Shown here in pieces: positions 28,966 through 31,840 of a stretch of DNA of 35,550 nucleotides (position 1 is the stretch's first letter; each line of letters opens with the position of its first letter). The notes beneath the pieces are model-generated. The model saw only the letters and a program-made list of their open reading frames with translations, was not told the DNA's origin and made no database searches. The position numbers and the translations under genes were made by a program. The stretch is taken from NCBI GenBank assembly GCA_007123715.1, contig SKKO01000173.1, positions 1 to 35,550 of the forward strand, in the 5' to 3' direction. The DNA is from Balneolaceae bacterium (GTDB taxonomy: Bacteria; Bacteroidota; Rhodothermia; Balneolales; Balneolaceae).

Positions 28966-30102
28966 CTATGGAATGAAACGTAATTGGAATACGAGGACGA
29001 TGATGGAATTATCGAGATCCATCGGGCCGCTATTTCCGAATGAATAGTTCAGATGGGTACGCACTAATTCTGTGTTGCCATCATAGATGAAACGGGATAT
29101 CCCAATGGTGTAATTATTTGTCCCGAAGCGGTCAAATGTCGCAGCTAAACCGCCCTGTCCCGGCTTTTGGACCATTTCATCAAAACGGCCAAGTACATGC
29201 CATTCACGTGTGACGCGGTATCCCAGTTCAGCGTAAAACCCGTGGAGCTTATATTCTCTGTCAGTTCCAAGGTTTACCCCGCGGCTGTCGTCTTTTCCGG
29301 TCAGGCTCATATATTCAATTTGTGAGAATAGCCCTGCAATTCCAAAGTCATTGGTTGCAGCTCTAAGTGACCAGGATGTCCGGTCAATATCAAACGGGCC
29401 TGTGCCTCCCTGAACCACATCCCTCTGCTGGTTTGTGGCAGCGTGAGCACCGAGTGTAAAGCCATCAATTAACTCCACATCTACACGGGCGCCGTAGAGA
29501 CCACCCCCGCCTTTCCTCTCGGTTATGTTCGAGCCGGCATAATTAAACCTTCCGGCACCATTCCCTACATGCACACCGTACCATAATCTGCCGTGCTGCC
29601 CGTATGCCATGATGCCAACATCCCGGAAAGCACTATATCCCATTACGTTAGACAGCGTGGTAGTAATAGGTGCACGTTCATAAAAAACCAATCTTGATGA
29701 AACCAGGCGTGCAGTATCGAAAGACTGGCCGGGCATCATAAATTGCCCGAGCCTGATATTGAACCACGGCCGTATATGCGCATCCACATGAAAATCGAGA
29801 AGCGAGGGTGTGGTGCCTGCAAATTCGATCCATGTTGTGGCGCTGAAATTGTCGCCGATTCTTCCTCTTGCCGTAATTCTTGCCCTTCTGATTCTGAAAC
29901 CTTGTGTTTCGAGTGTTTCTGAACCCAATACGGGCAGATTACCCTGCGAAGGCGTCAATATTTCTGTACTTTGATTGGCAATGAACCAGTTTTGCATGTA
30001 ACCGCCAACATCCATTTTGATCTGGCTTTGAACAGGTTGAATATTCACACCAATAGATAGCAATAGCAGTATTGCCAAAGGAGCAGTAACTTTTTTAAAC
30101 AT
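28966..30102 (-). CDS. Phosphate-selective porin O/P family outer-membrane porin
   Basis: Outer-membrane beta-barrel of the OprO/OprP family (PF07396), 378 residues. A signal peptide covers about 1-26 (ending PVQSQ). The body begins GGYMQNWF and continues with ETQGFRIRRARITARGRIGDNFSATTWIEFAG and then FNIRLGQFMMPGQ, the strand pattern typical of this family. Later parts show alternating hydrophobic strands such as GFYAELGYRVTREWHVLGRFD and TIGISRFIYDGNTELVRTHLNYSFG. The C-terminus reads VFQLRFIP; the expected terminal aromatic is third from the end. Phosphate specificity cannot be read from sequence, and no phosphate transport genes are near. It is a stand-alone gene with a long upstream region. 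Confidence 0.85.
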   Translation of the reverse strand: MFKKVTAPLAILLLLSIGVNIQPVQSQIKMDVGGYMQNWFIANQSTEILTPSQGNLPVLGSETLETQGFRIRRARITARGRIGDNFSATTWIEFAGTTPSLLDFHVDAHIRPWFNIRLGQFMMPGQSFDTARLVSSRLVFYERAPITTTLSNVMGYSAFRDVGIMAYGQHGRLWYGVHVGNGAGRFNYAGSNITERKGGGGLYGARVDVELIDGFTLGAHAATNQQRDVVQGGTGPFDIDRTSWSLRAATNDFGIAGLFSQIEYMSLTGKDDSRGVNLGTDREYKLHGFYAELGYRVTREWHVLGRFDEMVQKPGQGGLAATFDRFGTNNYTIGISRFIYDGNTELVRTHLNYSFGNSGPMDLDNSIIVLVFQLRFIP

Positions 30103-30364
30103 CGTCTTGATATCAAATTTTTAAGTGGCTGATGTGTGCTTCATTGATTTTTTTGGCACTGTCTCGTCCCGTGAGAGCTCATCAATAATTAACGTTTGCA
30201 GATGATTTTCATCTATGTATATACCACCATATTACTGCTCAAGTGTGAAAAATAGATTAAGTGATTCCCTGATTTAATGTTGGTAAAAAGACTGATATTT
30301 GAATGATAAGCGAAATGTGCCATGAGGGATCGGAACCGGATATCACGTGTTTAACTGTTGAGTA

Positions 30365-30415
30365 TTCGCTACGCCTGCCATCCGTAGCTTTCCTGGTCTA
30401 CGTAGCTTTAGCGAA
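30365..30415. repeat. Small mosaic repeat with inverted ends
   Basis: TTCGCTA (30365-30371) and TAGCGAA (30409-30415) are perfect inverted ends. Inside lies a direct repeat CGTAGCTTT at 30383-30391 and 30401-30409 (18-base period). The words resemble dispersed intergenic palindromes seen in many environmental bacteria; a link to any known family is inference. Confidence 0.4.
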
Positions 30416-30499
30416 GTTGACAGCGCAGGGTGGCTCTCGTTAAACTGTTTAACTGATTGGTCAGTAACAATTCCAAAATCTGAAACCTCTAACATTAAC

Positions 30500-30551
30500 C
30501 CCCGACGCTGACAGGAACCCGAAAGGCACGGGGACGCTGTCAGGTCTTTGA
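30500..30551. repeat. Hairpin element A (REP-like)
   Basis: Outer stem CTGACAG (30508-30514) with CTGTCAG (30537-30543), extendable by GAC/GTC with one bulged G. Inner stem CCCG (30518-30521) with CGGG (30529-30532), and a 7-base AAAGGCA loop. The flanks CCCCGACG and GTCTTTGA are identical to those of element B. It lies in the spacer between the porin and the alcohol dehydrogenase gene. Confidence 0.65.
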
Positions 30552-30573
30552 ACCTTGAACCTGAAACCTTGAG

Positions 30574-30625
30574 CCCCGACGCTGACAGAATCACGAAAAG
30601 GACGTGAATGCTGTCAGGTCTTTGA
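30574..30625. repeat. Hairpin element B (REP-like), related to element A
   Basis: Outer stem CTGACAG (30582-30588) with CTGTCAG (30611-30617), the same as in element A. Inner stem TCACG (30591-30595) with CGTGA (30603-30607) and loop AAAAGGA. Relative to A, one inner C-G pair is an A-T pair, so the stem is kept while the sequence changes. It is offset from A by 74 bases and ends 13 bases past the alcohol dehydrogenase stop. Confidence 0.65.
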
Positions 30626-30637
30626 CTACAAAGTCTT

Positions 30638-31840
30638 TCATTTCTGATCTTCTGTCATTTTAAAGATCGTAACGATGCCTTCTTTATCCAATTTGCCGAT
30701 TGCATTCAGCGGGCTTCCGCTTCCGTATACTTTAATCGCATAATCTGCAATTTCTCCGAAGGCGTTTTCCGGTATGTTTACATCGGATAATCGCTGGTAA
30801 AGTCCGTTATCCCGGAGCCAGTTTTCAAATGTTTCGATGAATTCATAGGCCCCTTTTTTTTCATCTGAAGACTGAATTCCAAACAGCTTTTCGCCCAGGA
30901 GAGCGAACCGGTCGACAGCCCGGCCATTTTGAACCATCCATTTAAAATAGGCGGGGTAAAGGATAGCGAGACCGCGCCCGTGGGCAAGGTCGGGATTAAA
31001 ACCGCTGAGTGCATGTTCCAGGTTGTGCATAATGAAGACGGAGGGTTTACGCCCTGCAATCTGGATGGTATTAAGCGCCAGCGTGGATGCCCACATGAGC
31101 TGGCCGCGGAGGGCTTCGTTTCCGGGATCTTTTTCCACCAGCGGCATTGTATCGAGTACGGTTTGCATTACGCCCTCGCTGTAGCGGTCGGCCAGGGGTG
31201 AATCGTTGCCGCCGAGGATGTAGTTTTCAAACACGTGGCTCAGGATATCCGAGGCCCCGTCGCGTGTGGTTTCCAGCGGGATTGAGGTGTGATAAGAAGG
31301 GTTTAGCCATGATGCTGCCGGTTTGAAAAACGAGTAGCCGATAGGTGATTTCCCATTTACTTCAACGTTTGAGATAACAGCGTAGGCCGTAACCTCCGAT
31401 GCGGTTGCCGCAGTAGTCGGGATCGTAGCAATCGGAATCGCCCCTTTCATGGTTTTATGTTTTGGTTCTCCCAGAACGAACGGCCAAATTTCCTTTTCGT
31501 CATCATGTATCAGACCGGCGATGCCTTTGGACGCATCCATCACAGAACCGCCCCCGAGCGCCAGTACAAAATCAACACCTTTTGCTTTGCCAAGCACTGC
31601 AGCTTTGTCGATGGTTTGAGCGTGCGGGTTGGGTTCAATTCCTTCGAACAATGTATACGTAATATGATGTGCATTCAATTGCGAAGTCACTTCATCCAGA
31701 TAACCTGCACGTTTTACACTTCCACCCCCGATCACGAGTAAGGCATGGTTTCCAAGTTCTGCAAGCTTATCAAAAAAAAGACCGTCCTTCTCTTTACCAT
31801 AGAAGATGTGAGTGGGAATGTGGACTTCGAATGGGTTCAT
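30638..31840 (-). CDS. Iron-containing alcohol dehydrogenase (BDH/YqhD-like)
   Basis: NAD(P)H-dependent group III alcohol dehydrogenase, 400 residues, probably reducing aldehydes to alcohols in the cytoplasm. The nucleotide-binding domain has VIGGGSVKR at 37-44 and LALGGGSVMDASKGIAG at 94-109. Next comes the conserved IPTTAATASEVTAYAVISN at 140-158. The metal site is built from D198 and H202 (ASDILSHVFENY), with H276 (NLEHALSG) and H287 (LAHGRG) as likely partners. Overall pattern and length fit the butanol dehydrogenase/YqhD branch. The gene is divergent from the M20 gene, with an 84-base spacer containing GGAAT/ATTCC (31891-31905). The 3' end abuts the REP-like hairpins. Confidence 0.9.
   Translation of the reverse strand: MNPFEVHIPTHIFYGKEKDGLFFDKLAELGNHALLVIGGGSVKRAGYLDEVTSQLNAHHITYTLFEGIEPNPHAQTIDKAAVLGKAKGVDFVLALGGGSVMDASKGIAGLIHDDEKEIWPFVLGEPKHKTMKGAIPIATIPTTAATASEVTAYAVISNVEVNGKSPIGYSFFKPAASWLNPSYHTSIPLETTRDGASDILSHVFENYILGGNDSPLADRYSEGVMQTVLDTMPLVEKDPGNEALRGQLMWASTLALNTIQIAGRKPSVFIMHNLEHALSGFNPDLAHGRGLAILYPAYFKWMVQNGRAVDRFALLGEKLFGIQSSDEKKGAYEFIETFENWLRDNGLYQRLSDVNIPENAFGEIADYAIKVYGSGSPLNAIGKLDKEGIVTIFKMTEDQK

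Follow-up and report, generated by a model that had tools for sequence, protein, structure and literature searches.

A Dispersed Family of Hairpin Elements in Balneolaceae and Its Probable Spread by a Divergent Clade of RAYT Proteins

Introduction

Two adjacent hairpins lie beside an alcohol dehydrogenase gene in a 35,550-nucleotide stretch of Balneolaceae DNA, hereafter called the window. They raise the question of what maintains a folded structure while the sequence that forms it changes. A preliminary description of the locus proposed selection on a folded RNA or on a single-stranded form of the DNA, as in REP elements moved by RAYTs. RAYTs are single-strand-specific HuH/Y1 nucleases related to the transposases of the IS200/IS605 family. 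Here, the fold, the family to which the two hairpins belong, the gene that accompanies this family in related bacteria and the competing explanations are considered in turn.

Two Hairpins in an Enlarged Intergenic Space

The relevant features of the window are as follows.

28966..30102, minus strand: porin gene (Porin_O_P; open reading frame, Pfam), at the far end of the enlarged intergenic space
30504..30546, plus strand: probable REP element A, G-type (GAC-G-CTGACAG...CTGTCAG-GTC), covariance model 65.0 bits, E 9.9e-21 in the window
30504..30506, plus strand: 5' foot GAC of A, pairing with GTC 30544-30546, G30507 bulged (fold)
30515..30535, plus strand: variable inner hairpin of A (G30515-C30535 pair; CCCG/CGGG stem 30518-30521/30529-30532; 7-nt loop)
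30578..30620, plus strand: probable REP element B, G-type, covariance model 64.9 bits, direct repeat of A at a spacing of 74 bp
30578..30580, plus strand: 5' foot GAC of B, pairing with GTC 30618-30620, G30581 bulged (fold)
30589..30609, plus strand: variable inner hairpin of B (A30589-T30609 pair; TCACG/CGTGA stem 30591-30595/30603-30607; 7-nt loop)
30638..31840, minus strand: iron-containing alcohol dehydrogenase (ADH) gene (open reading frame; Pfam PF00465/PF25137)

As originally described, both hairpins have identical outer arms, CTGACAG/CTGTCAG (30508-30514/30537-30543 in A, 30582-30588/30611-30617 in B), set between the same left flank, CCCCGACG (30500-30507 and 30574-30581), and the same right flank, GTCTTTGA (30544-30551 and 30618-30625). 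The two inner-stem differences reported there are also present in the sequence: C30519-G30531 of A is replaced by A30593-T30605 in B, which preserves the pair, and the A30517.G30533 mismatch of A corresponds to the pair T30591-A30607 of B. The exchange of G30515-C30535 for A30589-T30609 had escaped notice, and A and B thus differ by two full compensatory pairs and one repaired mismatch. Likewise unlisted was the pairing of GAC with GTC outside the stem, which leaves one bulged G. Two matches to CTGACAG N18-30 CTGTCAG lie in the window, 100 dinucleotide shuffles gave none, and the RNA folding z-scores of the two hairpins are -2.6 and -3.5. The window contains no match to Rfam at the gathering threshold, and no U-run follows either hairpin when its sequence is read directly. 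The two elements resemble the products of a 74-bp tandem duplication that have since diverged (78% identity, flanks included).

Seventeen bases separate the ADH stop codon from element B. The gap between the ADH and porin genes measures 535 bp here, with A and B, and about 210 bp, free of elements, in the relatives L042 and L048; this difference fits an insertion, although the enlarged gap also holds unrelated extra sequence and the empty sites belong to more distant relatives rather than to strains of one species. Directly 5' of element A, a further repeat-rich stretch (30345-30436, CCTGCCATCCGTAGCTTT / CCTGGTCTACGTAGCTTTAGCGAAG) looks like a second dispersed repeat family; its core, GTAGCTTTAGCGAAG, is found five times in the genome, four of them inside 600 bp of contig C280. 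Near-tandem heptamers, AACCTTGAACCTGAAACCTTGA-like strings, occupy positions 30551-30573, and similar strings adjoin elements in different genomes of the genus (L022, L031 and L013).

Selection on Folding

Base pairing was assessed in 155 sites retrieved by a pattern that did not constrain the outermost and central stem positions. The pair at the centre of the outer stem is Watson-Crick in 152 of them, against 89 expected from independent columns, and AT, TA, CG and GC are all represented. The outermost foot pair covaries between G-C and A-T and is likewise Watson-Crick in 152 of the 155 sites (87 expected from independent columns). In the 43-nt class of elements, 24 double-change cells were counted, compared with 7.8 +/- 2.1 after shuffling, where none of 500 shuffles reached 24, and with 1 to 5 in controls in which the structure was slid along the alignment; the 45-nt class gave the same outcome. 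In 61 of 79 comparisons, the 5' and 3' inner halves of an element fold better with each other than with halves swapped between elements (p 2e-8), although p-values of this kind overstate independence because the sequences are interrelated. The slide controls and the occurrence of all four pair types are unaffected by this kinship. The covariation anticipated among copies is thus present far above shuffled controls, and the idea that a stem kept under sequence change reflects selection on folding is borne out by pair-preserving changes in independent copies. Mismatches in the elements include six G.T and six A.C, equal counts that give RNA no preference over DNA as the folded molecule.

A Family Dispersed in the Genome and in the Genus

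The preliminary description had called for a search for further copies, and a covariance model derived from the 43-nt class indeed recovers 28 at E<=1e-3 in the genome that carries the window. With the same model, 24 of the 28 members of the genus have copies, up to at least 115 per genome, and the larger numbers may be lower bounds since scoring was limited to 150 candidates per genome. The more stringent exact-arm pattern occurs five times in this genome and 0 to 31 times in its relatives within the genus; altogether 20 genomes of the genus have it and none of 30 genomes from other genera does, and the reversed-pattern control gave 0 matches. For a gene near the hairpins, the closest named relatives come from Balneolaceae, Rhodohalobacter among them, which suggests that the host is a member of this family. 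All but two of the best 30 copies in the genome fall outside longer open reading frames, as judged from crude ORF calls. The family thus has the number and placement by which REPs are recognised, i.e., dispersed, mostly intergenic palindromes of 20-65 nt in tens to hundreds of copies. Among 62 cases of close neighbours, 53 are inverted, and 49 of the inverted pairs join a G-type element (GAC...GTC) to an A-type element (AAC...GTT), an arrangement of the BIME/REPIN kind. A and B, being direct repeats 74 bp apart, belong to the minority arrangement.

Many elements lie less than 200 bp from the ends of contigs C17, C40, C68, C206, C237 and C251 of genome G021, which suggests that the elements or repeats linked to them break short-read assemblies of the genus and that copy numbers are underestimated. 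A single GACGCTGACAG...TGTCAGGTC match at positions 62-100 of an IMG/VR viral contig (L050) is possibly due to chance.

A Divergent RAYT Clade Flanked by the Elements

The DNA between element copies of L026, L025 and L011 contains a divergent gene of about 212 codons, and a search with its product retrieved one clade of RAYT-like proteins. Its members have these elements on both sides, and elements of like architecture but with different stems, e.g., CACGATTGAAG...CTTCAATGTG together with AACGCTTCGAG...CTCGAAGGTT, flank the sister clade; RAYT and architecture also occur together in another five genera belonging to the order (L237, L239-L243). Taken together, 22 of the 23 loci of the clade, which span six genera, carry the element architecture and 20 carry two or more elements; the exception, L092, has visibly degenerate copies. 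Among 60 loci of other Y1/RAYT clades, the pattern matched at 10, nine of which look like chance, and the tenth (L077) has an element 3 kb from the gene (Fisher p 2e-11, a value to be read with the kinship of the loci in mind). In relatives, therefore, the elements flank a RAYT gene as REPs do in at least some of their genomes.

Profile searches recognise the proteins as divergent. They score 43-53 bits (E 4e-11 to 2e-14) against NCBIfam REP_Tyr_transpos (NF047646), below its curated cut-off of 80 bits, and at most 19.9 bits against PF01797 (Y1_Tnp), whose cut-off is 23, so that the latter fails as a detector of the cognate clade. Because these curated scores are missed, identification as RAYT rests on motifs, fold and flanking REPs. 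The HuH and catalytic tyrosine motifs of the Y1 family, N54-H55-x-H57 and Y144-I-H-x-N-P, are invariant in 13 proteins. The predicted structure (pLDDT 89.7) has the TnpA-REP fold: its best match in the PDB is 4er8, E. coli TnpA-REP with a bound REP hairpin (E 1e-6), and the next is the IS608 transposase. PF01797 detects many Y1 transposases in relatives, but its strong matches in the genus do not lie near these elements, which at first seemed to be evidence against an association with RAYTs.

At L024 (400-1430, G019:C41), a different RAYT gene is enclosed between hairpin repeats of its own, GCAGGCCTTCAGCCTGC and CTTGGGGC...GCCCCAAG, although it also adjoins an element of the present family. 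This arrangement suggests that several RAYT-REP families coexist in the genus. The next RAYT clades outward (L244-L253 and L260-L271) have no clear shared flanking hairpin except L267, where repeated AAAGCA...TGCTTT-type hairpins surround a RAYT relative that comes from a different family within the phylum (1396-2746).

Neither a cognate RAYT nor a PF01797 Y1 transposase was found in the 98%-complete assembly to which the window belongs. The predicted REP-associated Y1 transposase is thus found in relatives, flanked by the same elements, and is missing from this assembly, so that the local copies are probably remnants that are no longer mobile. Among near-complete genomes, copy number and presence of the RAYT show no significant correlation (p 0.30).

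Element Anatomy and Related Systems

The 65 distinct elements of cognate loci share the architecture x-A-C-(G/T)-C-T-n-n-n-A-G...C-T-n'-n'-n'-A-G-G-T-x', where x and x' are complementary. The scan that collected them imposed the AC, G/T and GT positions, the complementarity of x with x' and that of the stem; it imposed neither the CT...AG ends nor the identity of bases, and pairing also holds independently in the 155 sites, where x and the stem centre were unconstrained. The 7-bp stem sequence varies between RAYT clades. The foot consists of x-AC-(G/T) paired with GT-x', with a bulged G or T, in place of the unpaired 5' GTAG/GTGG tag of the GTAG superfamily, and for this reason the elements are not filed as GTAG REPs.

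The closest known system is that of the E. coli REP/BIME/REPIN elements and TnpA-REP (group 2 / subclass 2.2). Both comprise dispersed, intergenic, imperfect hairpins that have an irregular stem and frequently combine two types in an inverted pair, together with a flanking Y1 HuH gene whose fold, in the present case, matches 4er8. In E. coli, however, the foot is an unpaired GTAG, which is read by residues W94, Q95, E100, H101 and R104 of TnpA-REP. According to a weak HMM alignment, the present proteins differ at these residues and have an invariant Arg at E. coli position 100. A relationship is also apparent with the IS200/IS605 family (IS608, ISDra2), whose HuH/Y1 nuclease acts on single-stranded subterminal hairpins and among which the predicted RAYT has structural matches; here, in contrast, the hairpins far outnumber the gene, of which a genome has one or a few copies.

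Two-sided feet have been described before. The “double foot” REPs of RAYT subclass 2.4, found in Bacteroidetes and Cyanobacteria, have a foot on both sides (GT[AG]G...C[TC]AC), and their RAYTs have a variable insertion between the HuH and Y motifs; RAYTs with atypical repeats were also noted in Bacteroidetes (PMC6006769). The present elements resemble them in having a 5' sequence complementary to the 3' end, but their foot carries a bulge and reads x-AC-(G/T)...GT-x'. The present proteins lack the WQ motif of subclass 2.4, and their motifs NHFH, YIHRNP and SS, compared by motif description, fit no row of the published subclass table exactly (PMC6006769); 2.1, 2.4 and 2.6 are the candidate subclasses. 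Another kind of short palindrome without GTAG is the CGTC-tagged repeat. Such repeats occur in some Bacteroidetes and have an unpaired CGTC at the terminus, stems of 8-9 bp that begin with A-T pairs and loops of 4-5 nt; some of their families are mostly heterodimers, and no dedicated transposase is known for them (PMC3733652). The present elements differ from them in their 7-bp CTnnnAG stem, paired foot, bulge, long variable centres and RAYT.

Origin of the Hairpins

In light of these findings, A and B are very probably REP elements, parasitic DNA of a familiar sort with an unusual recognition end, spread by a RAYT that would recognise the single-stranded hairpin and whose gene is absent from this assembly. 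The other readings must account for the same observations. It is improbable that the hairpins are host functional RNA elements (terminators or stabilisers of mRNA 3' ends), with pairing preserved for the sake of an RNA that works at gene ends and with mobility secondary or past. B does end 17 bases beyond the ADH stop codon, the local copies are intergenic and, by crude ORF calls, few stand between divergent genes, and REPs are known to end transcription and to protect mRNA (PMC3733652, PMC6006769). The missing U-run and the mixed orientation of elements relative to genes nevertheless speak against such a role, as do the equal G.T and A.C counts, whereas selection on one RNA strand should favour G.U; the specific flanking of one RAYT clade would be left unexplained.

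Recombination sites of another machine are far less probable still. Integron attC sites have constant ends, an extrahelical base, a variable centre and an inverse core RYYYAAC...GTTRRRY, and the bulged base, the variable centre and the A-type elements, which start with AAC and end with GTT, recall them. The AAC/GTT core is, however, broken by the G-, C- and T-types (GAC/GTC, CAC/GTG and TAC/GTA), the sites are dispersed with no cassette arrays, and the associated gene is a RAYT rather than a tyrosine integrase. Pairs of elements 640-840 bp apart had been considered as gene cassettes, but the insert of L026 is a decayed RAYT and that of L029 has no clear gene. That A and B are a mere local tandem duplication is scarcely credible; their direct repetition and identity, flanks included, agree with it, but a family stands behind them that numbers 28 copies in this genome and hundreds across the genus, and a duplication is compatible with the REP reading. 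The points that weigh against that REP reading are the lack of a cognate RAYT in this genome and of a significant copy-number correlation, the direct orientation of A and B, NCBIfam scores under the cut-off, and empty sites that come from more distant relatives in a gap enlarged by unrelated sequence as well. The original REP/RAYT proposal is supported by the family, its covariation and the RAYT flanking in relatives, with two qualifications: the transposase is missing from this assembly, and the foot departs from the classical GTAG.

From this evidence we infer recognition, cutting, mobility and the loss of mobility in this genome, along the following lines. The RAYT would recognise the hairpin in single-stranded DNA, reading the foot (5' x-AC and bulged G/T; 3' GT-x') and requiring that stem pairing be kept more than stem sequence, and would cut and join beside the foot. 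The probable mobile unit would be the inverted pair of G-type and A-type elements (REPIN-like). Folding would be selected during spread, leaving compensatory differences between copies. RAYTs of the E. coli type cleave single-stranded REP DNA beside the hairpin, and part of their GTAG guide is believed to select the cleaved dinucleotides through complementarity; when the guide of one enzyme was changed, its cut site changed as well, and with AC at the end of the guide, cuts fell at GA and GT (PMC8266576). By analogy, the GT immediately 3' of the stem, which is invariant in the present elements, could be selected by the AC of their foot, which is likewise invariant.

Implications

REPs, REPINs and RAYTs are already known, and a RAYT clade with paired AC...GT feet would, on present sequence evidence, be a variant of them. 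The open-access literature searched yielded no description of a RAYT clade whose elements have paired x-AC...GT-x' feet. We tentatively raise the possibility, which we hold to be somewhat doubtful, that this is an undescribed RAYT-REP lineage in which a paired AC...GT foot replaces GTAG, AC serving as the guide and GT as the cleavage site, and in which RAYT and stems (CTGACAG, CTGCCAG, CTTGAAG, CTCGCAG and others, by clade) co-diverge via compensatory changes. The present elements would give the biology of RAYTs and REPs a second, non-GTAG recognition foot, with natural stem covariation across many species, and both guide-cleavage pairing and the co-evolution of enzyme and hairpin would become directly testable. 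The cognate RAYT sits in a protein clade largely missed by the Pfam Y1_Tnp model, and short palindromes seemingly devoid of a transposase in one genome can find their cognate RAYT in relatives.
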